Origin: Burkholderiales bacterium
GTDB taxonomy: Bacteria; Pseudomonadota; Gammaproteobacteria; Burkholderiales; SG8-41
Reading direction: 5' to 3'
Assembly: GCA_019746155.1 (NCBI GenBank)
Contig: JAIESJ010000049.1
Location: 1 to 35,242, forward strand
Length of the DNA: 35,242 nucleotides
The translations under genes and the position numbers were made by a program. The first letter of the stretch is position 1; every line of letters starts with the position of its first letter. Shown here in pieces: positions 3,144 to 30,087 of the stretch. The notes under the pieces are model-generated. The model saw only the letters and a program-made list of their open reading frames with translations, was not told where the DNA came from and searched no databases.

Positions 3144-3602
3144 ATGGCAAACATCACGACTTACAGTCCGTTTGAAGAAATTGCGCGCTTCAATCCGCTC
3201 GACGATCCGTTCGAAGATCTTTTCCGCGGTTTCTTCGTGCGGCCGTTGGCACTGGAGTCGCGCATGTGGGGACAGTCCGCGCCGTTCAGGATGGACGTCA
3301 CGGAGAACGATAAGGAGTATCGCGTCGTGGCCGAAATACCGGGCGTGCGCAAGGAAGACATCAGCGTCACCATCGACGGTGATCAGGTCTCCATCGCGGC
3401 GGAAGTAAAGCGCGAGAAAGACGTCAAGGACGACGAGAAGGCGCTGTGGTCCGAACGCCACTACGGCAAGCTGTACCGCGCATTCACCCTCGGTCACGAA
3501 ATCGACCAGGCAAATGCGCAAGCCAAGTATACCGATGGCGTGCTCGAACTGACGCTGCCCAAGTCGGAGTCGGCGTCAGGCAAGCGGGTCACAGTACATT
3601 GA
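3144..3602 (+). CDS. Hsp20/alpha-crystallin small heat-shock protein
   Basis: FRMDVTENDKEYRVVAEIPGVRKEDISVTIDGDQVSIAAE...YTDGVLELTLPK; upstream GGAGG. Confidence 0.95.
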   Translation: MANITTYSPFEEIARFNPLDDPFEDLFRGFFVRPLALESRMWGQSAPFRMDVTENDKEYRVVAEIPGVRKEDISVTIDGDQVSIAAEVKREKDVKDDEKALWSERHYGKLYRAFTLGHEIDQANAQAKYTDGVLELTLPKSESASGKRVTVH

Positions 3603-3621
3603 TCGCCCGTTGACCTCTCGC

Positions 3622-3649
3622 AAAAGCGGCCCGGAGGGGCCGCTTTTTT
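3622..3649. terminator. bidirectional intrinsic terminator between hsp20 and htpG
   Basis: AAAAGCGGCCC-GGAG-GGGCCGCTTTTTT, perfect 11-bp stem, A-tract and T-tract flanks. Confidence 0.85.
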
Positions 3650-3719
3650 ATTGCCGTCATGCAAGACAGCGGACCGACGGCAAGCGGACGCGCCGCGCCG
3701 CTTAAGGCGGCGTTGACCT

Positions 3720-5630
3720 CTATTTTCCGCCCCACGCCAGCATCAACTGATTGAGCCGCTTGACGAACCCCGCCGGGTCTTCGAGCTGGCCGCCCTCGGC
3801 CAGCAGCGACTGATCGAACAGAATCTGGACGAGGTCGTTGAAGCGCTCGCCCCGCGCTTCTTCCCTGAGCCGCAGCACCAGCGGGTGATGCGGGTTGATT
3901 TCGAGAATGGGCTTCGAGGCCGGCACCTTCTGTCCGGCCGCCTTGAGCAGGCGCTGGAGGTTGGCATTCAAGTCGTGTTCGTCGGCCACCAGGCACGCCG
4001 GCGATTCGGTGAGCCGCAGCGTGACACGCACGTCCTTGACGCGCTCGCCGAGCGTCTTTCTGATTTTCTCGACGAGTTCCCTGAATTCCCCCGCCTCTTT
4101 TTCCTGCTCTTTTTTCTCCGTCTCGTCCTCGAGCCGGCCCAGTTCCAGCCGGCCCTTCGCGACCGACTGCAGCGGCTTGCCCTCGAACTCGGTCAGGTGC
4201 GACGCCACCCACTCATCGACGCGGTCGTAGAGGAGCAGCACTTCCACACCCTTCTTGCGGAAAATCTCGAGATGCGGACTGTTCTTCGCCGCGGCGAAGC
4301 TCTCGGCGGTGATGTAGTAGATTTTCTCTTGGCCCGGTTTCATGCGCGAGACATAGTCGGCAAGCGACACCACCTGTTCCTCGGCGTCCTTGTGCGTGGA
4401 GGCAAAGCGCAGCAGTCTGGCGATGCGCTCGCGGTTGGCGTGGTCTTCGCCCACGCCCTCCTTGAACACCAGCCCGAATTCCTTCCAGAAGGTCGCGAAC
4501 TTCTCCCTGTGGTTCTCGGCCAGGTCCTCGATCATCGACAACACGCGCTTCACCGACCCGGCGCGGATGGCTTCGATGTCCTTGGACTCCTGCAGGATTT
4601 CGCGCGATACGTTGAGCGGCAGATCATTGGAATCGATCACGCCGCGCACGAAGCGCAGATACGCCGGCAGCAGGCGCTCGGCATCGTCCATGATGAATAC
4701 GCGGCGCACGTAGAGCTTGACGCCGCGCCGGTGCTCGCGGTCCCACAGGTCAAACGGCGCGTGCGACGGGATATAGAGCAGCTGGGTGTATTCCTTCCGG
4801 CCTTCGACGCGGTTGTGCGAATAGGCGAGCGGCGCCTCGAAATCGTGCGCCACATGCTTGTAGAACTCGTGGTACTGCTCCTCGGTGATTTCGGACTTGG
4901 GCCGCGCCCACAACGCGCTTGCCTGGTTAACGGTCTCGTCCTCGTCGGTGAGCTTGTTCTTGCCCGAATCCTTGTCCCATTCCTCTTTTTTCATCACGAT
5001 CGGCAGCGTGATGTGGTCGGAATACTTGCGGATGATCGAGCGCAGGCGATAGCCGTTGAGAAGCTCGTCCTCGCCTTCGCGCAGATGCAGCGTGACCTCG
5101 GTGCCGCGCGCCGCCTTTTCCACGGTTTCGATGGTGTACTCGCCGCTGCCGTCGGATTCCCATCTCACGCCATGCTCGGCGGTCAGCCCCGCGCGGCGGG
5201 TGGTGAGCGTCACCTTGTCGGCGACGATGAACGATGAATAGAAGCCCACGCCGAACTGGCCGATGAGATGCGCGTCCTTGGCCTCGTCTCCGGTCAGCCG
5301 CTGGAAGAACTCGCGCGTGCCCGACTTGGCGATGGTGCCGATATGTTCGATCACTTCCTGGCGCGACATGCCGATGCCGTTGTCGGATACCGTGATGGTG
5401 CGCGCCTTCGGGTCGTAGGCGATCCGGATTTTCAGCTCGGCATCGTTCTCGTAGAGCGCCTTGTCGGTGAGCGCCTCGAATCTGAGCTTATCGCAGGCGT
5501 CCGAAGCGTTTGAAACCAGCTCCCTCAGGAAAATCTCCTTGTTGCTGTACAGGGAGTGGATCATCAGGTTGAGCAGCTGTTTGACTTCGGCCTGGAAGCC
5601 TAAAGTCTCCTTGGTCTGGGTTTCTGCCAT
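3720..5630 (-). CDS. htpG: HtpG, Hsp90-family chaperone
   Basis: [69 protein letters not shown]; full length 636 aa. Confidence 0.98.
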
Positions 5631-11472: not shown

Positions 11473-12828
11473 TCATGTTATGCGTTTTCTGGCGAGCAGC
11501 GCCAGCGGCACGCCGAGCAGTAGCACGCCGATCCCGAGCTGCGCGCCGACGCTGCCCGGGTCTTTCGACATCGCATAGTTTGCGCTGGACCAGAGCATGA
11601 ACGCGCACATCGCGATGAACAGCATCGGCGTGAGCGGATACAGCGGCACGCGGAACGGGTTCCCGGAGAGCGGCTGCTGGCGCCGCAGCACGAACAGCGA
11701 CACGCCGGTCAGCATGAAGAACAGCCAGAAGGCCGGTGCGGTGTAGGCGACCATGGTCTCGAAGCCGTCCGGCGTGAACGAAGCGAGCAGCACCAGCATC
11801 AACGCCACCGCGCCCTGCAGCAGCAGCGCGTTGACCGGCGCGTTAGATTGCTCCTTCCATATGCCGAGCGCGCGGAACACCGGGAAATCGCGCCCCACCG
11901 CGTAATTGGTGCGGGCGCCGGTGAACACCGTGGCGTTGAGCGTGGACAGCGCGGCGGCAATCACGATCAGGCTCAGCACGATCGCTCCGGCATCGCCGAG
12001 CGTGGCTTTCATCAGATCGGCGGCGACGGCTTTCGACGCTTTCATGCCGTCGAGGCCCAGGACATTGAGATAGGCCAGGTTGAGCAGCACGTAGAGCACC
12101 GTGACGATGAGAATGCCCAGCACCAGGGCGCGCACGATATTGCGCCGCGCATCGCGGATTTCCGACGTGAGATAGGCCGCCTCGTTCCATCCGCCGTAAG
12201 TCAGCAGAATGAAGATCAGCGCGAGCTGCGAAAACATCGGCCCGGACGACGGCGCCGGCGCCGGCGCCGCCGGCGCGGCGCTGCCGCTCAAGCCCGCGAC
12301 GATCACGGATATCACCGCACAGGCCAGCGCGGTGGTCAGGATGGTCTGCAGCAGTTTGCTCTCGCGCGTGCCGGCGATATTGAGCACGGTGATGCCGGCG
12401 ACAGCCAGCATCGCGTAAATCACCGGACTCCTGGGTCCCAGGGCGACAAGCTGGGTCGCATAGTCGCCGAACACGAAAGCGATCGCGGCAATCGCGCCGG
12501 TTTGCACCACGCTCATGCGCGCCCAGGCAAACAGAAACGCAACCCCGCCACCGAAAGCGCGATTCAGAAAATAGTATTCACCGCCGGTATTCGGAAAAGC
12601 ACTGCCGAGTTCTGCGTAACACAGCGCGCCGACCAGCGAAATGACGCCGCCCGCGACCCACAGCGCGATGAACACCTGCTCGCTCGAGACGCTGCCGGCG
12701 ACGATCGAGGGCGCCTTGAAAATGCCAGCGCCGATCACGATGCCGACGATCATCGCCACCGCATCGAGCATGGTCAGCGTCGGCCGCGGTTGCACCGCGG
12801 CCGCGGCACGAGGTTCGCCGCTCACCAC
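11473..12828 (-). CDS. APC-superfamily amino acid permease
   Basis: about 12 TM segments; LDAVAMIVGIVIGAGIFKAPSIVAG; YFLNRAFGGGVAFLFAWARM. Confidence 0.9.
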   Translation of the reverse strand: MVSGEPRAAAAVQPRPTLTMLDAVAMIVGIVIGAGIFKAPSIVAGSVSSEQVFIALWVAGGVISLVGALCYAELGSAFPNTGGEYYFLNRAFGGGVAFLFAWARMSVVQTGAIAAIAFVFGDYATQLVALGPRSPVIYAMLAVAGITVLNIAGTRESKLLQTILTTALACAVISVIVAGLSGSAAPAAPAPAPSSGPMFSQLALIFILLTYGGWNEAAYLTSEIRDARRNIVRALVLGILIVTVLYVLLNLAYLNVLGLDGMKASKAVAADLMKATLGDAGAIVLSLIVIAAALSTLNATVFTGARTNYAVGRDFPVFRALGIWKEQSNAPVNALLLQGAVALMLVLLASFTPDGFETMVAYTAPAFWLFFMLTGVSLFVLRRQQPLSGNPFRVPLYPLTPMLFIAMCAFMLWSSANYAMSKDPGSVGAQLGIGVLLLGVPLALLARKRIT

Positions 12829-13730
12829 GGCACGCTTCCATCCGTCTCCAGCGCGCTCATGCGCAGTTCACCGCGCGCCTTCAGTTGCGCCTTCCACGGC
12901 AGCGGTTTCTGCCCGCCTATCGTCACCGTGCCCTCGATGACATCATCCCTGACGCGCCCCTGGAAGCGGTGTTTAGCGAGCCCTGCGCCCTGCGGCAGCT
13001 CCGCCTCAAAGCTCACCTGATCGCCGCGCACCTGGAACAGGGGCAGGCGCGCCGGCTTGCCGTCGACCCGCGCGTCCCCGCCCACTTTCTGGAAGCTCTG
13101 ATCGAATTCAAACTCGTAGATCACGCCGCGCCCGCCAGTGTAAATCAGCGATTCCCATTTGCCGGCGATTTTTGCCGGCACGATATAGAAAAAGATGTAG
13201 CTCTTGCCGGGGTCGCCGACCTGTTTTTCCGGCACATCGAGCGTCTTCTGCTCGTCCGGATGCCATTCCCCCATGTCGTAATCGTGGGTCACCACGCGCG
13301 TGCCCGGCTTAAGTGCCAGCAGCTTGGGCCGCAGCTTCTCGTTCATCTCGGGCAGCAGGTAACTCGTAATCACGGTCGCGTGCGAAAGATCGGCCTCGAA
13401 CAGATTTTGCTCGACGAACTGCGCCCGTTCGGCGACCCCCTCCCGGCGCGCGCTTTCACGCGCTTTCTTCAGAAGGTAGGCGTCCAGGTCAACGCCGAAG
13501 CCGCGCGCGCCGAATTTTTTGGCCGCAGTGATCACGATGCGGCCGTCGCCGGAACCCAGATCGATGATGAAATCGGAGGGACCGACTTTCGCCATCTCCA
13601 GCATCTCCTCGACCACGACCTGCGGCGTCGGCACATAGACGACGTCGCCCTTGCCGTCCTGGGCCGTCGCGGACAATGCGGTCAGCGACAGCAGCAGCGT
13701 GCAAAACCGCCAACGTTTGATGAAACTCAT
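12822..13730 (-). CDS. exported class I SAM-dependent methyltransferase, paralog 1
   Basis: signal peptide MSFIKRWRFCTLLLSLTALSATAQ; YVPTPQVVVEEMLEMAKVGPSDFIIDLGSGDGRIVITAAKKFGARGFGVDLD; C-terminal beta-rich EGTV..GG....W domain. Confidence 0.85.
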   Translation of the reverse strand: MSFIKRWRFCTLLLSLTALSATAQDGKGDVVYVPTPQVVVEEMLEMAKVGPSDFIIDLGSGDGRIVITAAKKFGARGFGVDLDAYLLKKARESARREGVAERAQFVEQNLFEADLSHATVITSYLLPEMNEKLRPKLLALKPGTRVVTHDYDMGEWHPDEQKTLDVPEKQVGDPGKSYIFFYIVPAKIAGKWESLIYTGGRGVIYEFEFDQSFQKVGGDARVDGKPARLPLFQVRGDQVSFEAELPQGAGLAKHRFQGRVRDDVIEGTVTIGGQKPLPWKAQLKARGELRMSALETDGSVPW

Positions 13731-13820
13731 CACCGCTCCTTCGTTTTCAGAAATATTACATGGCCCGTTGGCGGAGGAAAAACGCCGCCGCACCGATGAA
13801 CCCGGGTCGCCTCATCGCCG

Positions 13821-14774
13821 CTAGTTCGGCATCTGCGGCAGTTGCGGCGGCTTGAGCGAGGCGTGCGCCGGCTCCCAGAGCTCGGTACGCGTTGCGTTCC
13901 ATGCGAGCTGCCGCCCTGCCTGGTCGCGCATGATTTGCGCCTGCCCCTCGATCGCGTTATTGACGATGCGGCCGGAGAACTGGTAGCGCAGGGACGCGCC
14001 ATTGTCATTCACGACGACCGAGAAACCGATTTGAGTGCCGGCAAGCTTCGCATCCTCTATCGCGACTTTGCGGCCATCGACCTCCACCGTGCCTTCGATG
14101 TTCTGGAAATTCTGGTGGAGCGCCAGCTCGAAATTCAGCGGCTTGCCTTCCACCGGGAGCTGCCAGCGCCACTTTCCGGAGACCGTCGCCGGCATGATCC
14201 AGTAAAACACCTTGCTCCTGTGGTCGCGCCCCACCGGTTTATCGGGAGCATCGAGGATGAGCGACAGGTCCGGCGTCCATTCCCCCATGTCGTAATCATG
14301 GGAGACGATGCGCGTGCCGGGCTTGAGCATGGCGAGCAGTCTGGGGCGCACCATCAGATTGACTTCCGGCAGCAGGTAAATGGTGAGCACGGTGGCCCGG
14401 CTCACATCGGTTTCATAGAGGTCGCGCGCATAGAACTTGGCGCGGTCGGCCACACCGGCCCTGGCTGCGAGCCTGTTGCCCATCGCCACCAGCCGCTTGT
14501 CGAGATCGACGCCGAAGCCGCGCGCGCCGTATTTTTTCGCCGCGGTGATGACCATGCGCCCGTCGCCCGAGCCGAGATCGATCACATAGTCCTTCGGCCC
14601 GACCTGGGCGACTTCCAGCATCTTGTCGACGACGTTCTGCGGCGTCGGCACATAGGGCGTATCGCCGTAATCCTGGGTGAAAGCCGGCGCCGAAACGAAG
14701 CCGGTAACCAAAAACACGCCGCAAAACTTCGCGGCGATATGACTTGTCTTGCGTGCTGCCGTGCCAAATATCAT
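13821..14774 (-). CDS. exported class I SAM-dependent methyltransferase, paralog 2
   Basis: hydrophobic N-terminus HIAAKFCGVFLVTGFVSAPAFTQ; PYVPTPQNVVDKMLEVAQVGPKDYVIDLGSGDGRMVITAAKKYGARGFGVDLD; start placed internally in the longer ORF. Confidence 0.82.
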   Translation of the reverse strand: MIFGTAARKTSHIAAKFCGVFLVTGFVSAPAFTQDYGDTPYVPTPQNVVDKMLEVAQVGPKDYVIDLGSGDGRMVITAAKKYGARGFGVDLDKRLVAMGNRLAARAGVADRAKFYARDLYETDVSRATVLTIYLLPEVNLMVRPRLLAMLKPGTRIVSHDYDMGEWTPDLSLILDAPDKPVGRDHRSKVFYWIMPATVSGKWRWQLPVEGKPLNFELALHQNFQNIEGTVEVDGRKVAIEDAKLAGTQIGFSVVVNDNGASLRYQFSGRIVNNAIEGQAQIMRDQAGRQLAWNATRTELWEPAHASLKPPQLPQMPN

Positions 14775-14789
14775 TGCTAAAGCCTTTCG

Positions 14790-15140
14790 GTTCTGAACTT
14801 GATTCCATCCGCCGGCAATGCGCTTCGCGTTCCAGTCGAGCCTGCCCCGGATGCGCTTGCCGGAAAGCGCGGCACTGCCGGCAATGGCGTCGCCTTCGAT
14901 CCTGCCGTCGAGCTCGTACCTGGCCGGATCGCCATTCACTTCGGCGGTGAAGTTGAAACTGATCTGGTCGCCGCGCAGCCTGGGATTCTGCAAGCTCACG
15001 CTGCGGATGCCGGGCTTGAGCTCGAGCAGCCTGGAGCGCAGCTCCAGGTTGACGCGCGGCAGCAGATACATGGTGATCACAGTCGCCTGGGAAAAATCGG
15101 TGTCGAACAGATCGCACTTCCCGAACCCCGCGATATGAAG
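14790..15140 (-). pseudogene. decayed exported-methyltransferase paralog, N-terminally truncated and internally deleted
   Basis: CDLFDTDFSQATVITMYLLPRVNLELRSRLLELKPG jumps directly to LQNPRLRGDQISFNFTAEVNGDPARYELDGRIEGDAIAGSAALSGKRIRGRLDWNAKR; motif I and middle missing. Confidence 0.75.
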
Positions 15141-15322
15141 TTCGCAGCACGGCCAACCCTCCTTCGTCTGACAGGACCCAGCAACAATGCGGAAGCGCTA
15201 CGCTGATTTTACGGCCTGCACGGCAACCTCGCCCGCTTTGTCCAAAAGCACGACTCGCCCCGGTCGTTCAACTCTGGTAGATTGCGCGTTTACCAGAGGC
15301 GGAAATTATACCCGATAGCCTC

Positions 15323-15406
15323 GCAGCCTGTCGGACTTCGATCCGTTTGAGGCATTGCGCAGCGACACCGGACGGGTTCCTGATGAAAGCCGCGGCGACA
15401 GGCTGC
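15323..15406. repeat. inverted repeat, 11-bp perfect arms
   Basis: GCAGCCTGTCG (15323-15333) / CGACAGGCTGC (15396-15406). Confidence 0.5.
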
Positions 15407-15565
15407 CAATCAAAGGCTCAATCGAACCGCAGCCGGGAAAAGGCATAGGGTATCGCGGTCAACAGGAATGAACTTCGTCATGGATGCACTACCTCGGAAC
15501 CTGTTCTTCGTGCCTTTCATATCAGGAGCCTGCCGGGATGAGAGCCCGACAGACTCCTAGTTCTT

Positions 15566-17179
15566 ATGCCACTGCTCTACGCGATCGTTTTCATCTCCGG
15601 CGGCGCGATCCTGGCGCTCGAACTGCTGGCCTCGCGCATCATGACGCCCTACTTCGGCGTCAGCCTGTACATCTGGACCGGCATCCTGTCGATCACGCTG
15701 GTTTCGCTCGCGCTCGGCTACTGGGCGGGCGGCCGCTACGCCAACGGCCGTGACAGCAAGCCGCTGCCGGTCGCCCGGCTGGTACAGGGTTACGCGCTGA
15801 TGCCGGCCGTGGCCGCGCTTGCCATCGTCGCGGCCTGCCTCGTCTACCCCCATCTTTTTTCACCGCTCTCGATGTGGAGCCTGGTGTTCGGCGCTTTCGC
15901 GGCCTGCCTGATCCTGCTGTTCCTGCCGCTGGTCGCGACTTCCGCGATGAATCCGCTGCTGGTGGCCATTTTCCTGCAAAGCACCGGCAGGCAGGCAGGC
16001 GATGCCGGTGCCGGCAAGGTGTTTTTCGTGAGCACCATCGGCTCGGTCGCGGGCGTGCTCGTCACCGCATTCGGGCTGATCCCCTATACCAGCAACTTCG
16101 CCGCAACGCTGGTCGTCGCACTGACGCTGGCGCTGCTCTCGCTGGTGACCGCGGCTGTACCACCCGCACCGCTCGCTGCGCGCAAAACCATCGCTGCCAC
16201 TGCGATGACTGGCGCACTGGCTTCGGGACTGCTGCTATGGCAGGCCGACGCCTACACCGGGCGCATGGGACCGGTGAGTTATGGTGACAGCAGCTGGCGC
16301 GTCGAGGCCGCCCACGGCTCGCTGTTCGGTACGGTGAAAATCCTCAAAAGCGAGCCCGAGCGCGACTCGGGCCGTTTCCGGCGCATCTACTTTCACGACG
16401 GCCTGATCCAGAACACCGTCGATTCGAACGGCAGATCGATGTCGTTCTATACCTATGCGCTGGAAGCGCTCGCCTATGCCTACCGCCCGGAAATGCGCAC
16501 CGCGCTGGTGCTGGGAATGGGTGCCGGCATAGTGCCGATGCAGCTTACAGCGCGCGGCGTGCAAGTCGAGGCAGTGGAAATCGACCCGATCTCGCTGCGC
16601 GTCGCGCAGCGCTTCTTCGGCTTCGACCCCGCCAGGGTCCGCGTCCACCAGGCCGATGCACGCGCCTTCCTGCACCACTGTCCGCAGCGTTTTGACGTCG
16701 TGGTGCTGGATCTGTTTCACGGCGACGGCACGCCGGATTACCTGGTCACGCGGGAATTCTTTCGCGACCTGAAGCAGTGTCTCTCGAAGCGCGGCGTGGC
16801 GGTGTTCAACACTTTCGCCGATCTCGAGCGCCCGGTCAGTTACGCGCACTTTCTTGCAACCCTGCAATCCGAACTGCCGCATATCATGCTCTACCGCCCC
16901 GACTGGCCGGGGGCGACACACATCAACAGCTTCGTCGTCGCCGGTGCGGAACAACCTGCCGCGCCCGTCAAAGTCACGCTCGACTATGTGCCCGAGCGCC
17001 ACAGCGAAGCGCTATGGGCCATGCTCGCCCGCCCGATCCCGCTCAACGCATCCCTGCTGGCAGGCGGCGTGGTCGTCACCGATGCGCGCAACGCCGCCGC
17101 ACTCGACACCGCCCTGACCCAAGTCATCTACCGCCGTGCGGTAGTCGAGGCGCTTCCCAAGGAATTGCTTTTAAATTAA
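15566..17179 (+). CDS. fused membrane / spermidine-synthase-like SAM-binding protein
   Basis: N-terminal multi-TM FISGGAILALELLASRIMTPYFG; C-terminal TALVLGMGAGIVPMQLTARGVQVEAVEIDP...VVVLDLFHGDGTPDYLVTREFFRDLK. Confidence 0.88.
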   Translation: MPLLYAIVFISGGAILALELLASRIMTPYFGVSLYIWTGILSITLVSLALGYWAGGRYANGRDSKPLPVARLVQGYALMPAVAALAIVAACLVYPHLFSPLSMWSLVFGAFAACLILLFLPLVATSAMNPLLVAIFLQSTGRQAGDAGAGKVFFVSTIGSVAGVLVTAFGLIPYTSNFAATLVVALTLALLSLVTAAVPPAPLAARKTIAATAMTGALASGLLLWQADAYTGRMGPVSYGDSSWRVEAAHGSLFGTVKILKSEPERDSGRFRRIYFHDGLIQNTVDSNGRSMSFYTYALEALAYAYRPEMRTALVLGMGAGIVPMQLTARGVQVEAVEIDPISLRVAQRFFGFDPARVRVHQADARAFLHHCPQRFDVVVLDLFHGDGTPDYLVTREFFRDLKQCLSKRGVAVFNTFADLERPVSYAHFLATLQSELPHIMLYRPDWPGATHINSFVVAGAEQPAAPVKVTLDYVPERHSEALWAMLARPIPLNASLLAGGVVVTDARNAAALDTALTQVIYRRAVVEALPKELLLN

Positions 17180-17195
17180 AAAGTTCGACTGCATG

Positions 17196-17242
17196 TTGAC
17201 AAAACCAGCACTTCATCCCATGATGTAGATACGTGTAGATAC
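17196..17242 (+). promoter_or_regulatory. candidate promoter and operator of the antitoxin-toxin operon
   Basis: TTGACA (17196-17201), 17-nt spacer, CATGAT; overlapping direct repeats TGTAGATAC at 17224-17232 and 17234-17242. Confidence 0.5.
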
Positions 17243-17254
17243 AAGGGATGATCA

Positions 17255-17524
17255 ATGGCGACCAAGGGCTTGCGGATGGAACTGGTGGTGTCGAAGTGGG
17301 GCAACAGCCTCGCCGTGCGCTTGCCGGCGGAATCGGTCAAGAGAATCGGCGTGGGCGAGGGCGATACGCTCATTGCGGAGATCTCGGCCGACGGGCGGCT
17401 GGTCCTCGCCCCGGAAGGCCGCGCCATCGGCAAGGCCGAGTCACGCCGCCTGCGTCAATTTCTTGACCGCCAGAAGGAAACGGCGCCGGTGGTCGGGGAC
17501 ATGCGCCGCGGCGCGCGCTACTGA
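17255..17524 (+). CDS. AbrB/MazE/VapB-type antitoxin
   Basis: MELVVSKWGNSLAVRLPAESVKRIGVGEGDTLIAEI; ends in a 1-nt overlap (TGATG) with the PIN gene. Confidence 0.9.
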   Translation: MATKGLRMELVVSKWGNSLAVRLPAESVKRIGVGEGDTLIAEISADGRLVLAPEGRAIGKAESRRLRQFLDRQKETAPVVGDMRRGARY

Positions 17525-17946
17525 TGATTTACGTCGATACGAGCGCCCTGGTTCCGGTCTTCATCCGGGAGCCGAAAAGCGAGGCCGTCATAGGCTGGCT
17601 CGAGGCCTCGGGCGAGCGTCTGGCGATCAGCGAATGGTCCCTGGTCGAGTTCGCTTCGGCCGCCGCGATCAAGGTGCGCACCGGCCAGGCGGCAGCGAGC
17701 CTGGCGAAACAGGCCACGGCGCGGGTCCACGAATTCGCGCGGAAGCATTGCACGGTGGCCGTTCCCGGAGGGGAGGAATTCCGCCGCGCCGCCGAGCTGG
17801 CGGGTGACGGCACGTTGAAGCTGAGGGCGGGCGACGCGCTTCACCTTGCCATCGCCGCGAGCCTGAGCGCACGAGGCATACTCTGCCTCGACGAGGCGAT
17901 GATTGAGAGCGCCAAGTCGCTCGGGATGAGCATTGTAACGGTTTAA
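17524..17946 (+). CDS. PIN-domain toxin (VapC-type ribonuclease)
   Basis: MIYVDTSALVPVFIREPKSEAV; LRAGDALHLAIAASL; CLDEAMIESAKSLG. Confidence 0.92.
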   Translation: MIYVDTSALVPVFIREPKSEAVIGWLEASGERLAISEWSLVEFASAAAIKVRTGQAAASLAKQATARVHEFARKHCTVAVPGGEEFRRAAELAGDGTLKLRAGDALHLAIAASLSARGILCLDEAMIESAKSLGMSIVTV

Positions 17947-17975
17947 CCGTCGATTCTCGTAACCCCCGGACTACA

Positions 17976-18048
17976 CGGGTCGGACCACGCTAAGCTTCCG
18001 TAACTTCGGCACTTTCGTTCGGGGGATATCTGGCGTTGGTCCGACCCG
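17976..18048. repeat. inverted repeat, 12-bp perfect arms, 49-nt loop
   Basis: CGGGTCGGACCA (17976-17987) / TGGTCCGACCCG (18037-18048). Confidence 0.7.
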
Positions 18049-18193
18049 GTTATGTCTTTTGTAACATATTGTTTTTACTATATTTTTTCGAGTATCAGCT
18101 TTTGATCTTATCGGCGTTTATCCGCGTACCCCTCAAGGCACCCGTCAAGCGGGTATTGAGAAGAAAGGTATTAAAAAGAATTTATCGGCGGCT

Positions 18194-18224
18194 CAAAAAG
18201 CAGTAAAGCCGTACTCCTTACTGC
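18194..18224 (-). terminator. terminator overlapping the stop codon of methyltransferase paralog 4
   Basis: minus strand GCAGTAA-N11-TTACTGC-TTTTT. Confidence 0.6.
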
Positions 18225-19084
18225 AACGCCGTCTTCGCCGCACGCGTCGCCGTCCAGCGCGCGCTCTTGCCACCGCCCAGATCGACCGTGCCTTCCATTC
18301 TGTCGCCCGCAACGCGGCCCCGGAACATCTGGCGCAAGCCATCCGCAGCGATGGCAAAGCCGATGTCCTCGCCACGCAGCGTCGGCTGCAGGAGCTTGAG
18401 GTTCCTGCCCCCCGAGTTCACCGTGCCCTCGAAATTCTGATAAGTCTGCCGCAGCGCAGCCTGATAATGTGATCCTCCCGCCACCGCGATGCGCCAGTTG
18501 CCGGCGATCTTGGCCGGAACGATCCACAGATAAATCGTCGCCCGCGCCACGCCGTTGACCTTCTCCTTCTCCGGCACGTCGAAAGTAAACTCGTCGTCGT
18601 GCTGCCATTCGCCGAAATGATAGTCGTGCGACACCACGCGCGCGCCGGGCCGGAGTTCGGTATAGATCTTCGCGCTCAGATTTTTCATCATTTCCGGCAG
18701 CAGGTATAGCGTGAGCACCGTGGCGCGACTCAAATCGGCCTTAAACACGTCCCGCACCTCGAACTGCGCGCGGTCGGCGATGCCCAGCCGACTGGCTTCG
18801 TTATTGCTCAGTTTGACCAGAGCGGGATCGATGTCGACGCCGAAGCCGCGCGCCTTGTAGCGCTTTGCCGCGGTCAGCACGATCACGCCGTCGCCGGAAC
18901 CGAGATCGATGACGAAATCGTCCGGCCCGACTTTCGCCATGGCCAGCATCTGATCGACGACGACCTGCGGCGTCGGCACATATGGCCCGCCCGATCTTTC
19001 CACTTCCGCCGCGAATACCTGCGGCGCCAGCAGCGCGACGCATAACATCGCGCCGCGCGCCGCATGCTTCAAGCCTGCAAGCAT
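18218..19084 (-). CDS. exported class I SAM-dependent methyltransferase, paralog 4
   Basis: signal peptide MLAGLKHAARGAMLCVALLAPQVFA; PYVPTPQVVVDQMLAMAKVGPDDFVIDLGSGDGVIVLTAAKRYKARGFGVDID. Confidence 0.84.
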   Translation of the reverse strand: MLAGLKHAARGAMLCVALLAPQVFAAEVERSGGPYVPTPQVVVDQMLAMAKVGPDDFVIDLGSGDGVIVLTAAKRYKARGFGVDIDPALVKLSNNEASRLGIADRAQFEVRDVFKADLSRATVLTLYLLPEMMKNLSAKIYTELRPGARVVSHDYHFGEWQHDDEFTFDVPEKEKVNGVARATIYLWIVPAKIAGNWRIAVAGGSHYQAALRQTYQNFEGTVNSGGRNLKLLQPTLRGEDIGFAIAADGLRQMFRGRVAGDRMEGTVDLGGGKSARWTATRAAKTALQ

Positions 19085-19112: not shown

Positions 19113-19940
19113 TTAAAATTCCAGCTTGTCGCCGGGATTGATCGCATGCACCTTGGTCGAGGTGCTGCCCAGCGCCTCGATGTATTCCTTGGGCGTGCCG
19201 CGCAGGAAAGGATTGGTCCCGTAGTGCATGGGGATCGCATGTTTCGGCTTCAGCCACTCGTTGGTGGCATACGCCGCATCCCTGGGGCTCAGCACGAAGC
19301 GCCCGCCGATCGGAATCATCACCAGGTCCGGCTTGTAGTAGTCGGCGATCAGCTTCATGTCGCCGAACAGTCCGGTGTCGCCCATATGATAGATCTTGAA
19401 GCCGTTCTCCAACTCAATGATGTAGCCGACCGGCTCGCCGCCGACCAGGGTTTCGGGCTTGCCCTGGGCGTTCGGCCACAGCAGTTCCGAGCTGTGCTCG
19501 GCATGCGTCTGCGTGATCTTCACGCCGGGGAAGGGATTGATGGTGCCGCTTTTGTTCATGCGCGGCGCCAGTTCGGCCGGCAGCACGCCCATCGTGGTCA
19601 GTGACTGGTTCATGCCCGCCGGCCCCCACATCGGAACCTTGTGCTTTTTGGCGAGATCGGGCGCATCGCCGAGATGGTCGCCGTGCGCGTGGGTGACCAG
19701 AATCAGGTCGATCTTGCCGACCGCATCAAGATTCTTGTATTGCTCGGGAGTCTTGGGATTTCTGGTGATCCACGGGTCGACCAGGATCACTTTGCCGCCG
19801 GGTGTGGTGATGCGCATCGCCGACTGGCCCAGCCACAGTATTTCGATTTTCCCGCTTGGCTGCGCGAACGAAACGCCCGCGGTCAGCAGCAGCGACACAC
19901 CGGCCATCAATACCAACAGATTGCGATACCAGCTTTTCAT
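19113..19940 (-). CDS. exported metal-dependent hydrolase, metallo-beta-lactamase fold (UPF0173-like)
   Basis: signal peptide MKSWYRNLLVLMAGVSLLLTAGVSFAQ; LVTHAHGDHLGDA; HMGDTGLFGD; IPMHYGT. Confidence 0.87.
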   Translation of the reverse strand: MKSWYRNLLVLMAGVSLLLTAGVSFAQPSGKIEILWLGQSAMRITTPGGKVILVDPWITRNPKTPEQYKNLDAVGKIDLILVTHAHGDHLGDAPDLAKKHKVPMWGPAGMNQSLTTMGVLPAELAPRMNKSGTINPFPGVKITQTHAEHSSELLWPNAQGKPETLVGGEPVGYIIELENGFKIYHMGDTGLFGDMKLIADYYKPDLVMIPIGGRFVLSPRDAAYATNEWLKPKHAIPMHYGTNPFLRGTPKEYIEALGSTSTKVHAINPGDKLEF

Positions 19941-20150: not shown

Positions 20151-20918
20151 CTAAGGCTTAACAAACTTCAGCACGAACTCGTCATTCGGAATCTTCGGCT
20201 TGAATACCGACGCATCGCGCGGATCGTCCGGGTTGCGCAGGAAACCGGCTTCGCCGACCAGTTTGAAGCCCGCGGCTTCCACCTCCCGGCGCAGCACGCT
20301 TTCCTCGATGCGGTGCAGGGTCTTGCCCTCGCTCACGCCCGTGCCGGGACGCCCGGAATGGTCGGCGACAATGTACAGACCGCCCGGCTTCAGCGCCGTG
20401 AACACCGCACGGTTCATTTTATTCCGGTCGACGCCCAGCCAGACGGTGTCATGATAAACAAAATTGAACGTCACGAGGTCGAGGTTGCGCGCTTCCGGCG
20501 GCACCGGGTCGTCGAATTCGCGCACCAGGGGAACCACGTTGCGCATCGCCGGCTTTTCCAGCCGCTCGCCAAAGCGTCCTTTGACGATGTTTTCCAGAAG
20601 ATAACGGCTGTTCTGGGCGTAGACGACGCCGTCCGGCCCCACGACGCGTGCCAAAAGCTCGGTGTTGTAGCCGCCGCCCGCCCCGAGATCGAGAACGCGC
20701 ATGCCCGGCCGCACCCCGTAAAACGCCAGCAGTTTCTCCGGCTGACGACGCTGGTCGATCACCCGGTCCGCGTCGCTGCGGTCCGGGCTGTGCACCTGCC
20801 AGAAATAGAAGTTGTCCGGCAGCGGCCGCTCGGGCAGAAGACCGGCGCAGCCGCTCATGAAAAGCAGCACCGCCAATACAAACCCGTGCAGCCTGCCTTC
20901 CCCGTTTGTTTGCGTCAT
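20151..20918 (-). CDS. putative lipoprotein SAM-dependent methyltransferase
   Basis: lipobox-like LFMSGCAG; GMRVLDLGAGGGYNTELLARVVGPDGVVYAQN; LVTFNFVYHDTVWLGVDRNKMNRAVFTALKPGGLYIVADHSG. Confidence 0.87.
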   Translation of the reverse strand: MTQTNGEGRLHGFVLAVLLFMSGCAGLLPERPLPDNFYFWQVHSPDRSDADRVIDQRRQPEKLLAFYGVRPGMRVLDLGAGGGYNTELLARVVGPDGVVYAQNSRYLLENIVKGRFGERLEKPAMRNVVPLVREFDDPVPPEARNLDLVTFNFVYHDTVWLGVDRNKMNRAVFTALKPGGLYIVADHSGRPGTGVSEGKTLHRIEESVLRREVEAAGFKLVGEAGFLRNPDDPRDASVFKPKIPNDEFVLKFVKP

Positions 20919-21179: not shown

Positions 21180-23030
<1,851 letters not shown>

Positions 23031-23042
23031 GCCTCCCCGGGT

Positions 23043-24179
23043 TCAGCTGCCAGGCTGGAGAGTGACGCTGATCTCGATCTTGCGACTTTCTCGCAGGACA
23101 CTCAGCCGCACTGCGTCCCCCACCTGGAAATCGTCGAGCCTGGCGAAGAGTTTCGCCACGCTTTCGACCGGCTTATCGTTCACCGCAGTGATGATGTCTC
23201 CCGGAACGAAGCTGCCGTCAGCCCCGAGCCTTGCGCCCTTCAGGCCGGCGGCCTGCGCCGCGGAGCCAGGAGCGACGCGCAGCACCAGCACGCCTTCCAC
23301 GCCGAGCTGTTGGGTGATAGCGCGGTTGAGCGCTTCATCGACCTCGATGCCCAGGGCGGGACGGATATATTTGCCGCGCGCGATGAGTTGCGGCACCACG
23401 CGATTGACCGTATCCACCGGCACGGCAAAGCCTACCCCGGCCGACGCCCCCGAAGGGCTGTATATGGCCGTATTGATGCCGATCAGGCGACCGGCGGAAT
23501 CCAGCAGCGGCCCGCCGGAGTTGCCGGGGTTGATGGCGGCATCAGTCTGGATCAGATGCTCGATGACGCTGCGCTCGTCCTCGCCGGGCAGAGAGCGGTC
23601 CAGCGCAGAAATGATGCCGGTGGTGAGCGTCCAGTCAAGCCCGAACGGGTTGCCAATGGCAAAAACCTTCTGCCCTACCTTGAGGTCGTGACTCGTGCCG
23701 ACCGGGACCGGCGGCGGGCGCTTAATCCCGACGCCGATCCTGAGCACCGCCAGATCGTGCGCGGGGCTCGCGCCCACCAGCGCCGCGCGGTAGTCGCGGC
23801 CGTCATTCAGCCGCACGCGCGCTTCCGAGGCACCGGCGACGACATGGTAGTTGGTGACCACGTGGCCCTTTTCATCCCAGATAAAGCCCGAGCCGGTGCC
23901 TTTCGGTATGGTGAACACGTTGCGTGTCCAGAAATCCATCACGCGTTCGCTGGTCGTGATGTAGACGACCGAGTCCTTGGACTTCTCGAACAGTTCGATG
24001 GTGCTCTTCTCATCGGCGGCGAGATCGCCGCGCGGCGTGACCACCCGTGGGGCAGCCTCGCCCCCAAAGACAGTGCGCTCGATCCAGGACAGCATGTACC
24101 AGGCCATGAGGACAACCAACACGGCTGTGATGAGCCAGAGCAGGCGACGCAGGAACGGATCGGCGGACGAGCGATAGGT
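23043..24179 (-). CDS. S1C trypsin-like serine protease with a single PDZ domain (DegP/DegS/HtrA)
   Basis: triad contexts VVTNYHVV, HDLAVLRI, INPGNSGGPL; C-terminal PDZ; N-terminal TM anchor. Confidence 0.95.
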   Translation of the reverse strand, partial: TYRSSADPFLRRLLWLITAVLVVLMAWYMLSWIERTVFGGEAAPRVVTPRGDLAADEKSTIELFEKSKDSVVYITTSERVMDFWTRNVFTIPKGTGSGFIWDEKGHVVTNYHVVAGASEARVRLNDGRDYRAALVGASPAHDLAVLRIGVGIKRPPPVPVGTSHDLKVGQKVFAIGNPFGLDWTLTTGIISALDRSLPGEDERSVIEHLIQTDAAINPGNSGGPLLDSAGRLIGINTAIYSPSGASAGVGFAVPVDTVNRVVPQLIARGKYIRPALGIEVDEALNRAITQQLGVEGVLVLRVAPGSAAQAAGLKGARLGADGSFVPGDIITAVNDKPVESVAKLFARLDDFQVGDAVRLSVLRESRKIEISVTLQPGS

Positions 24180-24271
24180 CATATTCCCTCCCTCAGGCAA
24201 AAAAAGGCTTCAGCACCATTCATGATCATGTTGACCGGCACCAGGGTGAGCAGCGGCCCCTCCTGAGTTTC

Positions 24272-24832
24272 TCAACAGCGTTCATTCCCCGTGGGCCGGG
24301 ATAAGCGCCCGCGTGCCGCCCGCTCGCCATCGCCGCCCGGCGCGCCGGGTTGGTTTACGCCTTGCCGCTCGAGGCAGTCTTCGCGCTCCTGCATGAGCCA
24401 ATAAACGATCCCCAGCACCAGCAGCGCGCCCGCGAGCGCGGCGATCTTGGGGGCCCCAATCTCGAGATCGAGGATGATGAACTTGCGCGCTACCGCGAGC
24501 ATGGCTATCAGGATCACGGTTTTGACCTGAACGATATGGTCCCGCCGCAGCGCCACGCGGATGATCGAGTGCTTGAACTCCATTGCGATGAGCAGCGTCA
24601 TGATCATCCCGAATATCGTCTGAAACACGGCATGGTCGAGCGGGCTTAAAGCCTCGACGGCAAGCAGGAGTACGACCGCGCGGACGAGCTGAAGCAGCGA
24701 AATCATGACGATGACCGAGATCACGCCCGCCAGGATCATCGCGACGACCTGCTCGTAGCGCTCGTAGACCGTCATGATCCGCCATTGCCTGCGGAACTCC
24801 GTGAGCTGCCGATGTGTTCCGGTATCGTTCAT
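24272..24832 (-). CDS. PsiE-family (phosphate-starvation-inducible E) membrane protein
   Basis: LDHAVFQTIFGMIMTLLIAMEFKHSIIRVALRRDHIVQVKTVILIAMLAVARKFIILD. Confidence 0.88.
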   Translation of the reverse strand: MNDTGTHRQLTEFRRQWRIMTVYERYEQVVAMILAGVISVIVMISLLQLVRAVVLLLAVEALSPLDHAVFQTIFGMIMTLLIAMEFKHSIIRVALRRDHIVQVKTVILIAMLAVARKFIILDLEIGAPKIAALAGALLVLGIVYWLMQEREDCLERQGVNQPGAPGGDGERAARGRLSRPTGNERC

Positions 24833-25288
24833 CGTTCTTGTTTGTGTCGGATGCGGAAATTTTCGGAATCCGTTTTGCTCGTGACAAGCACATTTCTCTT
24901 GGTACCCGCCTCATGATACCAGCATCAAGCCATTACCTGTATTCGACCCCGGCACGCTTCAAGATTGTTTCGTTTTCCGTCATCGGTCACACTCACAGCG
25001 CGCGGCGCGGGTTAAAGGCAAGCTCGCGCGCCATCGTTTCATCAGGCTCGGAGAGGGCGATCTGAAAGGCGGTAGTCAGCTTATCGAGCACATGTGTCTT
25101 TTCGTGTCGGGGAAACATGGTGCCGGAAAATGGGGCTGCCTGCACCCTTTTCAAGGAGGCCGCTTGCTCCATACCCGTATGATAAACGGGGGAAGTGGGG
25201 TGTCATGTTCGGTAACCGGTTCGAGAGCAGGCGGCCGGTCATGCAAGCGCCATGCGGTCGGGACACCGCGTCGGCCTCGCTTCCGGGA

Positions 25289-25317
25289 CTTGATTCCGGA
25301 GATACAGGCCACCATAT
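25289..25317 (+). promoter_or_regulatory. sigma32-like promoter upstream of the hsp20 trio
   Basis: CTTGATT (25289-25295), 14-nt spacer, CACCATAT (25310-25317). Confidence 0.5.
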
Positions 25318-25481
25318 AAGGTTTGCGCGAATCCCGGCGGGCCAACGCATCCGCAGGCTGATCTTGATCAACGGGCGCTTGCGTTTGCCGCTCGTGTTTC
25401 GTTGATCTCGCCGCCGCGTGGCGGCGGAGTGGATCACTCAACCGATTTTTTGATGGATGCCATTTTTAGGAGGCGAATAAC

Positions 25482-25934
25482 ATGTATCAATCCATTCTGT
25501 CCGCGCCTGGCGATCTGTTCGCCGAACTGGACCGACTCCGGCGCGAGATGCAGCAGAGTTTCGGAGGGCTGGGCATGCCATCCAGCATCCGCGCGGTGAC
25601 CCGGGGATCGTTCCCCGCGATCAACATCGGCAGCACGCCGAAGTCGGTGGAAGTTTACGCGTTCGCGCCGGGAATCGATCCAGACAAGCTCGATGTGAAC
25701 GTCGATCGTGGCCTGCTCAGCATTTCCGGAGAGCGCAGAAGCGACCTGCCGGAGGAAAGCGGCGAGGTGTCGATATATGCGAGGGAGCGATTCGCCGGAA
25801 GCTTCAAGCGCGTCATCAGTCTGCCTGAGGATGCAGATCCATCGCGCATCGAGGCCAGGTATCGCGATGGCGTTGTCCACATTTCGGTGCAGCGGCACGA
25901 GCCGGCACAGCCCAAGCGTATTGAGATCAGATGA
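25482..25934 (+). CDS. Hsp20 family protein (trio copy 1)
   Basis: FPAINIGSTPKSVEVYAFAPGIDPDKLDVNVDRGLLSISGERR...YRDGVVHISVQRHEPAQPKRIEI; AGGAGG SD. Confidence 0.95.
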   Translation: MYQSILSAPGDLFAELDRLRREMQQSFGGLGMPSSIRAVTRGSFPAINIGSTPKSVEVYAFAPGIDPDKLDVNVDRGLLSISGERRSDLPEESGEVSIYARERFAGSFKRVISLPEDADPSRIEARYRDGVVHISVQRHEPAQPKRIEIR

Positions 25935-25959
25935 GGTTGCCGACAACAGGACCGGAGGA

Positions 25960-26343
25960 ATGAACATGAGTGACAGGAAAGAGTCTGCGAAGCAGGAACA
26001 ACAGCGCGCCGGCATGACAATCATGCCGGCAGTGGACGTGGTCGAAGATCGCACGGGTATCACCTTGACCGCCGACTTGCCCGGTGTGCCCAAGGACAGG
26101 CTGACCGCACGCGTCGATGGGGAAACCCTGCTCATCGAGGGAGACATTGCGCTGGAAACGGCGGAAGGCATGGAAGCGGTGCATGCCGAGATGCAAGGCA
26201 TGCGCTTCCGGCGGGTCTTCACGTTGAGCCGGGAACTCGACACATCGAAAAGCGAGGCGGCATTCAGGAACGGTGTACTGAGGCTGCGGATCCCCAAAGC
26301 CGAACATGCGCAGCCGCGCAAGATCGAGGTCAAGGTCGGGTGA
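25960..26343 (+). CDS. Hsp20 family protein (trio copy 2)
   Basis: MPAVDVVEDRTGITLTADLPGVPKDRLTARVDGETLLIEGDI...FRNGVLRLRIPKAEHAQPRKIEV; GGAGG before ATG 25960. Confidence 0.95.
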   Translation: MNMSDRKESAKQEQQRAGMTIMPAVDVVEDRTGITLTADLPGVPKDRLTARVDGETLLIEGDIALETAEGMEAVHAEMQGMRFRRVFTLSRELDTSKSEAAFRNGVLRLRIPKAEHAQPRKIEVKVG

Positions 26344-26396
26344 TTACGGCGGCCCCGCGGGCCGCTCCACTTCTCGAATTGACGGGAGTTGTCGAT

Positions 26397-26900
26397 ATGA
26401 AAGCGCTTACGGAATTGAGACAGGGTTTGGAAGAAGTGTGGGAATCGGTTTCTGAGGGTTGGCGGCGTTTGCGGGAGTCCGCCGCCGGTGCGTTGACCCG
26501 CTTCAGGCCCGGGCAGAAATCATCGCTTCCGGCTGGCGTCGAAGACGATCTTTACCTGCCGTCTTCGGGATGGGCGCTGCTCGCGGGTGACGTGTTCGAG
26601 GATGCCGGGAAAATAGTGGTTCGCCTCGAAGTGCCGGGCATGGAGAAAAGCGACTTCAACATCGAAGTGCGCGACGATGCTCTCATCGTGCGGGGCGAAA
26701 AGCGGTTTGAGCGGGAGGCGAGCGAAGGGCGGTACCGCATCCTGCAGTGCGCCTATGGCACTTTCCAGCGCGTCGTTCCCCTGCCCGCGCCGGTGATCGC
26801 GAATAAAGCGAAAGCAACGTACCGTAACGGGGTGCTGAAGATCGAATTGCCCAAGGCCGGGCCCGCCAAGGCCAAAGCGATCGAGATAACAATCGGATAA
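26397..26900 (+). CDS. Hsp20 family protein (trio copy 3, N-terminal extension)
   Basis: ILAGDVF-like ALLAGDVFEDAGKIVVRLEVPGMEKSDFNIEVRDDALIVRGEKRF...YRNGVLKIELPKA. Confidence 0.93.
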   Translation: MKALTELRQGLEEVWESVSEGWRRLRESAAGALTRFRPGQKSSLPAGVEDDLYLPSSGWALLAGDVFEDAGKIVVRLEVPGMEKSDFNIEVRDDALIVRGEKRFEREASEGRYRILQCAYGTFQRVVPLPAPVIANKAKATYRNGVLKIELPKAGPAKAKAIEITIG

Positions 26901-27050: not shown

Positions 27051-28574
27051 TCATCCCTCAACTTCATCGAGGCCGACCTTGGAGCGCCAGTCCTTGCTCT
27101 TGAAAATGAGCGGCTTGATGCTGAGCAGGAACAGCAGCACCCCCAGGCCCAGCATCGTGGTCGCGATCGGGCGCTCGAGGAATATCCCGTAGTCGCCGGC
27201 GCTCATCGCCAGTGATTGGCGCAGGCTGAGTTCCAGCATCGGCGAGAGCACCAGCCCCAGCGCCACCGGAGCAAGATCATAATCGAACTTGCGCAGCACA
27301 TAGCCGATACCGCCCATGATCAGCATGATCCAGACGTCGATCATGCTGTTGCTCACCGAATAAGTGCCGAGGATGCAGAAAGCGAGAATGCACGGATAAA
27401 GATAGGCATACGGGATGCGCAGCAGGTTGACGAACAGCCCCACCATCGGCAGATTGAGAACCAGCAGCACGACGTTGCCCACGTACATACTGGCGACGAA
27501 CCCCCAGAACAGCTCCGGCTGCTGCGAGATGAGCAGCGGGCCCGGTGATATGCCATGCACCATGATCGCGGCGATCATCACCGCCGTGACCGGGCTCGTC
27601 GGAATGCCGAGCGCCATCATCGGTACGAAAGCGCCGGAGGCCGCGGCATTGTTGGCCGACTCGGGCCCCGCCACGCCTTCGATCGCGCCTTTGCCGAAAC
27701 GTTCGGGATGCTTCGACATGCGCCGCTCGATGCCGTATGAAACAAACGAGGAGATGATGTGCGCGGAGCCGGGAATGATGCCGATCATGAAGCCGAGCAG
27801 GCTGCCGCGCGCGATCGGGCCGACCGACAGCCGGAATTCCTCGCGCGAGGGTATCAGATCGTGGAGCTTGGGATTCTGCACCTTGGGCGCCGCATCCTGC
27901 CCCGCGGTGAGCAGGATTTCCGAGATGCCGAACAGCCCCACCGCCACCGGCACAATGCCCACGCCGTCACCCAGTTCCACCAGGTCGAAGCTGAAGCGCG
28001 TGTAACCGCTCATCGCGTCGATGCCGATCATGCCAAGCATCAATCCCAGCCCCGCCATCGCCAGGGTCTTCAACATCGACCCGCCGCTCATGTAAGCGAG
28101 AATGAACAACCCCATCATCAGCAGCGCGGTATATTCCGGAGGACCGAACCGCAATGCAAATTCGGCGAGCGTAGGCGCGAGCAGCATGAGACCGACCACA
28201 CCCGCGGTCCCCGCTATGAAAGATCCGATTGCCGCGATCGCCAGCGCCGGGCCGGCGCGCCCGTTCTGCGTCATCGCATAACCATCGACGCAGGTCATCA
28301 CCGACGCCGCCTCTCCGGGAATCCGCATCAGGATGGAGGTGGTGGAACCGCCGTACATCGCGCCGTAATACACGCCGGACAGCAAGACGATGGCGATGAT
28401 GGGATTGAGGCCGAAAGTTGCAGGCAGCAGCAGGCTGATTCCCGCGAGCGGCCCCAGCCCAGGCATCATGCCGACCAGGGTGCCGATGATGCAGCCAACG
28501 AAAGCATAAACCAGCACCGAAGGGCTGAGCGCGACGGAAAAACCGAGCAGCAGATTATTAAAAGTCTCTAACAC
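27051..28574 (-). CDS. tripartite tricarboxylate transporter TctA-family permease
   Basis: GMMPGLGPLAGISLLLPATFGLNPIIAIVLLSGVYYGAMYGGSTTSILMRIPGEAASV. Confidence 0.95.
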   Translation of the reverse strand: MLETFNNLLLGFSVALSPSVLVYAFVGCIIGTLVGMMPGLGPLAGISLLLPATFGLNPIIAIVLLSGVYYGAMYGGSTTSILMRIPGEAASVMTCVDGYAMTQNGRAGPALAIAAIGSFIAGTAGVVGLMLLAPTLAEFALRFGPPEYTALLMMGLFILAYMSGGSMLKTLAMAGLGLMLGMIGIDAMSGYTRFSFDLVELGDGVGIVPVAVGLFGISEILLTAGQDAAPKVQNPKLHDLIPSREEFRLSVGPIARGSLLGFMIGIIPGSAHIISSFVSYGIERRMSKHPERFGKGAIEGVAGPESANNAAASGAFVPMMALGIPTSPVTAVMIAAIMVHGISPGPLLISQQPELFWGFVASMYVGNVVLLVLNLPMVGLFVNLLRIPYAYLYPCILAFCILGTYSVSNSMIDVWIMLIMGGIGYVLRKFDYDLAPVALGLVLSPMLELSLRQSLAMSAGDYGIFLERPIATTMLGLGVLLFLLSIKPLIFKSKDWRSKVGLDEVEG

Positions 28575-29014
28575 TAGAATCCCCAGGGGCTGCGCGGCAG
28601 CGGCACGTGGAGCAGGTCGCCCACCACATAAAAGGAAATCAAACCGAAGCCGAACGAGACCAGCAACACCGGCAGCGGCCGCCTGCGCTCAATTACACCC
28701 AGGAAGAAAATCAGCAGCGCGATCACGGTAATCCGGTAACCGATGTGCTCCAGCGCAAAGGCGCCGACCGCGCTTGCCACCATGATCACCAGCGCGCGCA
28801 TTGCCCCCGACCAGCGGATTGCAGCCAGCGGCTTTGATTTGCCGCCCCACAACGCGATCAACAGCCCCGTCGCGCCCAGGAAAACAGCGAGCAGCAGCGG
28901 CATGTACCCCGGTCCGGGCTCCTGCAGCGAACCGACCGGATAGGCGCGGTTCTGCCACCCCAGGTACAGCGCGAGCAGGAGCAGCATCAATCCGGAAAAC
29001 TGGTCGCTGCGCAT
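28574..29014 (-). CDS. tripartite tricarboxylate transporter TctB-family small permease
   Basis: 4 TM segments, overlaps TctA by 1 nt; PGPGYMPLLLAVFLGATGLLIAL. Confidence 0.88.
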   Translation of the reverse strand: MRSDQFSGLMLLLLALYLGWQNRAYPVGSLQEPGPGYMPLLLAVFLGATGLLIALWGGKSKPLAAIRWSGAMRALVIMVASAVGAFALEHIGYRITVIALLIFFLGVIERRRPLPVLLVSFGFGLISFYVVGDLLHVPLPRSPWGF

Positions 29015-29083
29015 GCTTCTCCCCCCTGGTGTCTAAATGTTGTCCTAAGCCATGTTGTCAAATGCCTGTGAACCGTCCGCCTG

Positions 29084-30061: not shown

Positions 30062-30087
30062 TGTGTTGTCTCCTCAGAAAAATTGGC

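Follow-up and report, generated by a model that had tools for sequence, protein, structure and literature searches.

The window analysed here is the whole 35,242-nt stretch of contig JAIESJ010000049.1 from the assembly of a Burkholderiales bacterium (GCA_019746155.1); genes were called with a home-made procedure, and coordinates are forward-strand positions of the window. Three intact genes on the minus strand encode predicted exported aKMT-like methyltransferases: gene A (12822..13730; type T13, 302 residues, with a C-terminal β domain), gene B (13821..14774; type T11, 317 residues) and gene C (18218..19084; type T23, 288 residues). The Sec signal predicted for gene A reads MSFIKRWRFCTLLLSLTALSATA, with cleavage directly before QDG. 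The three proteins are 45–47% identical pairwise and have in common the segments Y-V-P-T-P-Q, DLGSGDG, TxYLLPE and R(V/I)V(S/T)HDYxxGEW as well as a C-terminal domain, in agreement with a preliminary description of this DNA, which had reported three intact paralogs and whose listed motifs are all present. A plus-strand reading of the same coordinates is meaningless. Chance or a frame artefact is ruled out by E values of 3e-45 and 5e-36 to solved methyltransferases, by orthologs of A, B and C across dozens of genomes, and by the dN/dS ratios and structure given below.

The same description had named four neighbours, each of which is found at the locus. A LAT/SLC7-like APC permease (11473..12828, minus strand), the conserved partner, overlaps the end of gene A by 7 bases with the start codon as called. 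On the plus strand, 15566..17179 encodes a membrane protein of seven helices that ends in a spermidine-synthase-like Rossmann domain, for which a periplasmic orientation is predicted. Two further minus-strand genes encode an exported metallo-β-lactamase (MBL)-fold hydrolase (19113..19940; NCBIfam PRK00685) and, at 20151..20918, a predicted lipoprotein (lipobox MSGC) whose domain resembles class I methyltransferases. Two paralogs come in addition to those described earlier: an intact one on another contig of the same genome (C253:8909-9646), and a broken fourth copy at about 14811..15128 (minus strand), in frame and upstream of B, in which profile positions 77–122 and 200–263 survive and which we assign to type T5 by position and resemblance. 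A PIN-domain (VapC-like) gene recognised by Pfam (17524-17946, plus strand) lies between gene C and the spermidine-synthase-like gene.

Array order and age of the paralogs

A search of a genome collection with the methyltransferase returned 71 loci, mostly in betaproteobacterial assemblies; many of the records are metagenome assemblies, some of them doubtfully named. At most loci with enough flanking sequence, the genes follow a single order, starting with the lipoprotein methyltransferase-like gene, T23 (gene C) and, on the opposite strand, the spermidine-synthase-like gene, and continuing with T5, T11 (gene B), T14, T17/18, T6-9, T13 (gene A) and the permease. Membership varies, and some loci are without some of the types. 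Arrays in this Burkholderiales family hold five to seven paralogs, and about nine methyltransferases stand in a row at one locus (L087) in another family of the order. Among 35 further genomes of the window's family, nearly all gave 8–21 matches, counts that include weak ones. The clustering first noted in the window thus recurs as ordered arrays with conserved neighbours, not as scattered singletons.

In a likelihood tree, types T13, T11, T5, T14, T17 and T18 each form one side of a branch. Since the types are clades that hold fixed positions, the paralogs are ancient, and recent tandem duplication of A, B and C is ruled out; the repeated duplication suggested earlier stands as an old event but not as recent copying. 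With T5 broken and T14, T18 and T7 missing, the window represents an eroded array.

The remaining neighbours are linked to the array to different degrees. The spermidine-synthase-like protein has seven hydrophobic segments, and its pattern of positively charged loops places the Rossmann domain outside; its cysteine content is ordinary (0.9%), which weakens this periplasmic placement. Aminopropyltransferases carry a GGGDG-type motif, which was absent from this family: G-x-G-A-G is found in all 36 members with residues at these positions. With the motif lost, the protein is probably not a spermidine synthase, and we rejected spermidine synthesis as its role. The lipoprotein gene, whose product has a methyltransferase-like fold, is the upstream neighbour of type T23 at 8 loci. 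Should this lipoprotein and the spermidine-synthase-like protein both be oriented towards the periplasm, a single locus would bring together three different SAM-type folds in that compartment. The MBL hydrolase lies near the array at 3 loci only and was discarded as a core partner; of the neighbour set first put forward as a system, the permease is strongly linked, but the hydrolase is not.

Catalytic domain, SAM site and C-terminal domain

The first ~140 mature residues form the methyltransferase domain. Sequence comparison and modelling place this predicted catalytic domain of A, B and C among the aKMT/FAM173-class seven-β-strand lysine methyltransferases, of which aKMT was compared directly; this kinship had not been noted before. 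The best NCBIfam model for all three was the protein-lysine N-methyltransferase aKMT (NF041081, E 3e-35 to 1e-29). Their scores of 121, 109 and 103 bits lie far below its curated equivalog cut-off of 200, so we do not file them as this equivalog, and the match does not establish a lysine target. The closest solved structures are 5BXY (E 3e-45) and aKMT 5FA8 (E 5e-36), both bound to SAM or SAH, with 42–51% identity. An AlphaFold2 model of mature A, built from 98 aligned sequences, reached a pLDDT of 93.9, and Foldseek aligned it to aKMT with SAH, aKMT with SAM and 5BXY with SAH at target TM-scores of 0.90–0.91 and rmsd values of 1.2–1.8.

The window proteins share with Sulfolobus aKMT (aKMT4; PDB 5FA8, 5FAD, 5JWJ) 42–43% identity over ~157 aligned columns, an rmsd of 1.2–1.4 to the crystal forms and the segments VPTP, DLGxGDGR, LL and GTRVVSHxxxxxxW. 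In contrast, the archaeal aKMT is cytosolic, is ~160 residues long and has neither a signal peptide nor a C-terminal β domain. 5BXY, a Salinibacter ruber protein whose function as an "RNA methyltransferase" is given by annotation only, is the closest solved structure (~50% identity, SAH bound), but its crystallised chain lacks the C-terminal domain. By their published description, the mitochondrial FAM173A/B proteins (ANT-KMT and ATPSc-KMT) are likewise of the aKMT-like class and membrane-associated, and a hydrophobic segment precedes their domain (PMC9006661, PMC5828452). FAM173 differs in having an uncleaved anchor and in acting on matrix-side lysines, where SAM exists, whereas the window domain is predicted to be extracytoplasmic. 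From their relationship to aKMT and FAM173, lysine of envelope proteins is a possible target of the exported methyltransferases, to which we give somewhat less than even odds.

The SAM site appears intact throughout the family. Among 98 aligned members covering 22 types, D35, G37, G39, D40 and G41 of motif I (D-x-G-x-G-D-G) are invariant, as are the acidic residue 59 at the end of strand 2 and D/N87 after strand 3. The later active-site residues Y102, R123, H127 and W134 are also retained in 98/98, and active aKMT likewise has R, H and W in the last segment. Mutation of a key Asp of SAM-binding motif I abolishes the activity of FAM173B (PMC5828452). Genes A, B and C show dN/dS values of 0.18–0.34, indicating purifying selection. 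Loss of SAM as a ligand would not be expected to leave site and selection so intact, and the conservation pattern suggests that the family members are most probably SAM-binding enzymes.

In the AlphaFold2 model, the C-terminal 120 residues of A form eight antiparallel strands. This part is less conserved than the catalytic part (0.44 vs 0.65). The domain matched no convincing family in Pfam and gave no significant match in a PDB profile search, and Foldseek returned a weak likeness to fatty-acid-binding/SAHS β-barrels, with E of at least 0.05; we therefore describe it as eight-stranded and barrel-like. It probably binds the substrate or the envelope. At three loci (L134, L146 and L147), two different exported methyltransferases adjoin the permease, of which one has this domain and the other lacks it; these are small arrays that combine the two forms.

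Export signals and the linked permease

Signals were judged by home-made scoring, with a positive n-region and a cleavage site as criteria. By this scoring, 163 of the 171 relatives bearing the start motif have a Sec-type signal behind a start codon; the mean charge is +1.9 before the core and −1.0 after it, and a cleavage-like motif follows the core in 234/237. The mature parts contain 6 cysteines in 61,345 residues, compared with 0.2–1.6% in cytosolic and membrane neighbour families, 0.12–0.28% in exported binding proteins and none in the exported MBL hydrolase. Among the 27 permease-linked methyltransferases, an export signal is present in every one, recognised by score in 26 and as a twin-Arg signal in the remaining one, and the two relatives that have no signal at all (L155 and L161) are both without a permease. 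On these signals, flank charges and cysteine exclusion, the family is almost certainly exported, as first supposed, and cytoplasmic N-termini are not what the sequences indicate.

The Tat pathway, which could carry SAM out inside a folded enzyme, was rejected as the general route, twin-Arg-like signals being found in 8 of 238 proteins of the main set; such signals nonetheless occur in some relatives. Export of the family seems to follow several routes: at four loci (L137, L141, L149 and L148), the signal of the permease-linked methyltransferase is either Tat-like (RRDFL, KRRAFM) or contains a lipobox-like SGC. At two loci from outside the class (L157 and L159), an exported methyltransferase with two closely spaced cysteines, possibly a disulfide, lies beside the permease.

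In 36/40 cases the permease gene comes next after T13 and is read in the same direction, and the two frequently overlap by 4 bases. Co-occurrence was assessed in 200 genomes of the order searched with the permease and a methyltransferase profile: the permease was found in 34, the methyltransferase family in 41 and both in 33. The permease thus occurs in 1 of the 159 genomes that lack the methyltransferase family, and 8 of the 41 methyltransferase genomes are without it (Fisher p 5e-29, a statistic that ignores kinship). Presence and absence of the two also covary inside families f4, f10 and f18, with one exception in f10 (G600). Because the 71 loci had been found through the methyltransferase, we retested the linkage starting from the permease: an exported methyltransferase adjoins it at 22 of 26 loci (17/20 further loci of the order and 5/6 outside it), in both gene orders. 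Starting from the methyltransferase outside the order, the permease is present at 4/9 loci. Two permease orthologs have no exported aKMT-like neighbour; judged from sequence, one lies beside a spermidine-synthase-like gene (L145, genome G574) and the other beside another class I methyltransferase-like gene (L152, genome G601). We are highly confident that methyltransferases and permease are functionally linked. The adjacent LAT/SLC7-like permease is the strongest partner and the defining one, a role that it had not been given before.

By homology the permease belongs to the LAT branch, within the APC superfamily; among solved structures it comes closest to SLC7 light chains and to BasC, all of them exchangers. 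Its linkage to the methyltransferases makes SAM/SAH a tentative candidate cargo; from its sequence, it could instead carry any amino acid. Sam3 and Gap4 are fungal importers from a different APC branch. These two proteins, from yeast and Candida respectively, establish that some APC permeases carry SAM (PMC5177730).

A possible periplasmic methylation module

SAM-dependent methylation in bacteria is taken to be cytosolic, and neither a SAM pool in the periplasm nor a comparable bacterial exporter of SAM is known to us. The ways around this paradox proposed at the outset, namely that the proteins are non-secreted, are tethered or use another ligand, are not favoured by the signals, the cysteine exclusion and the invariant SAM site. 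Given export, this site and the conserved permease, it is simpler to suppose that SAM itself crosses the membrane. In the reading that we prefer, with a probability of roughly 45%, A, B and C and the permease would constitute an extracytoplasmic methylation module in which an exchanger moves SAM out and SAH (or methionine) in. Fold identity, export signals, intact SAM site, conserved order and permease linkage are the sequence-level support for it. Catalytic activity, SAM/SAH exchange, a lysine target and a division of labour are inferred.

The methyltransferases would be made with Sec signals, or in some relatives with Tat-like or lipoprotein-like ones, and would fold in the periplasm, with the SAM-binding catalytic domain of the aKMT/FAM173 class kept complete. 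The permease would swap cytosolic SAM for spent SAH (or methionine), supplying the periplasm with methyl donor. One exported methyltransferase and the permease would form the basic unit. In this Burkholderiales family that unit may have expanded to five to seven specialised paralogs in a set order, together with two further Rossmann proteins whose predicted orientation is likewise periplasmic. The paralogs would presumably each methylate a separate envelope protein, with lysine as the most likely site.

The exported enzymes could also be real but draw SAM from outside the cell, for example from lysed cells or a biofilm, with the permease importing a product or amino acid that the reaction, or the turnover of methylated envelope proteins, sets free. 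This would account for the export signals, the intact SAM site and the linkage of an amino-acid-exchanger-type permease to the enzymes; we consider it unlikely, as free extracellular SAM is dilute and unstable, and an unreliable supply fits poorly with several paralogs kept under purifying selection. Somewhat less likely still, the Rossmann fold could serve as a non-enzymatic periplasmic binder or sensor of SAM-like or other nucleosides (SAH or methylthioadenosine, for instance), working with the adjoining permease as solute-binding proteins do, which would suit its predicted extracytoplasmic location. The ligand loop is, however, invariant in 98/98 together with Y102, R123, H127 and W134, of which the last-segment R, H and W recur in active aKMT, and no LAT-type permease is known to us to need a binding protein. 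An uncleaved anchor with a cytosolic domain, for which FAM173A/B offer a precedent in that a membrane segment at the N-terminus precedes their domain of this class (PMC9006661), is very improbable in view of the charge pattern around the core, the 234/237 cleavage-like motifs, the nearly cysteine-free mature part, the Tat-like or lipobox-like signals of some relatives and the lack of a permease beside both signal-less ones.

For the exchange of SAM and SAH, the plant Golgi transporter GoSAMT, which belongs to a carrier family other than that of the window permease, provides a parallel. Plants import SAM into the Golgi for lumenal methylation via Golgi SAM transporters; in the proposed model, the likeness lies in a carrier that delivers SAM to methyltransferases across a membrane (PMC9946043). 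GoSAMT differs in being eukaryotic and in serving polysaccharide methylation in the lumen. As a wider proposal, held more doubtfully than the module itself, some Pseudomonadota may keep a periplasmic SAM pool by means of a LAT-type SAM/SAH exchanger, for lysine methylation of the envelope by exported sets of enzymes. Such a pool would correspond, in bacteria, to the import of SAM into the lumen of the Golgi, and the system would represent a new class of extracytoplasmic protein modification with possibly the first bacterial SAM exporter. The pairing of permease and methyltransferase spans several Burkholderiales families and other Pseudomonadota; as a two-gene module, it makes the presence and route of periplasmic SAM an answerable question and gives a testable role to a secreted methyltransferase set that has had no explanation so far. 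Consistent with the initial view of an undescribed system, the open-access papers searched, a scope that does not amount to proof of novelty, contained no description of such periplasmic, exported or secreted methyltransferases.

Other genes of the window lie on either side of the array. Positions 21180-26900 group FtsH, an HtrA/DegP-like PDZ protease, PsiE and three Hsp20 genes (by Pfam), and a fourth Hsp20 (by Pfam) and HtpG (named from its sequence) are found at 3144-5630, near the other end; we take these genes to resemble a stress-tolerance (tLST/LHR-like) set. On the minus strand, 27051-31068 carries permease genes of the TctA/TctB type and, after them, genes for two binding proteins of the TctC/Bug type, all named from sequence, and TctA/TctB/TctC-type homologs also occur near the methyltransferase array at several other loci.
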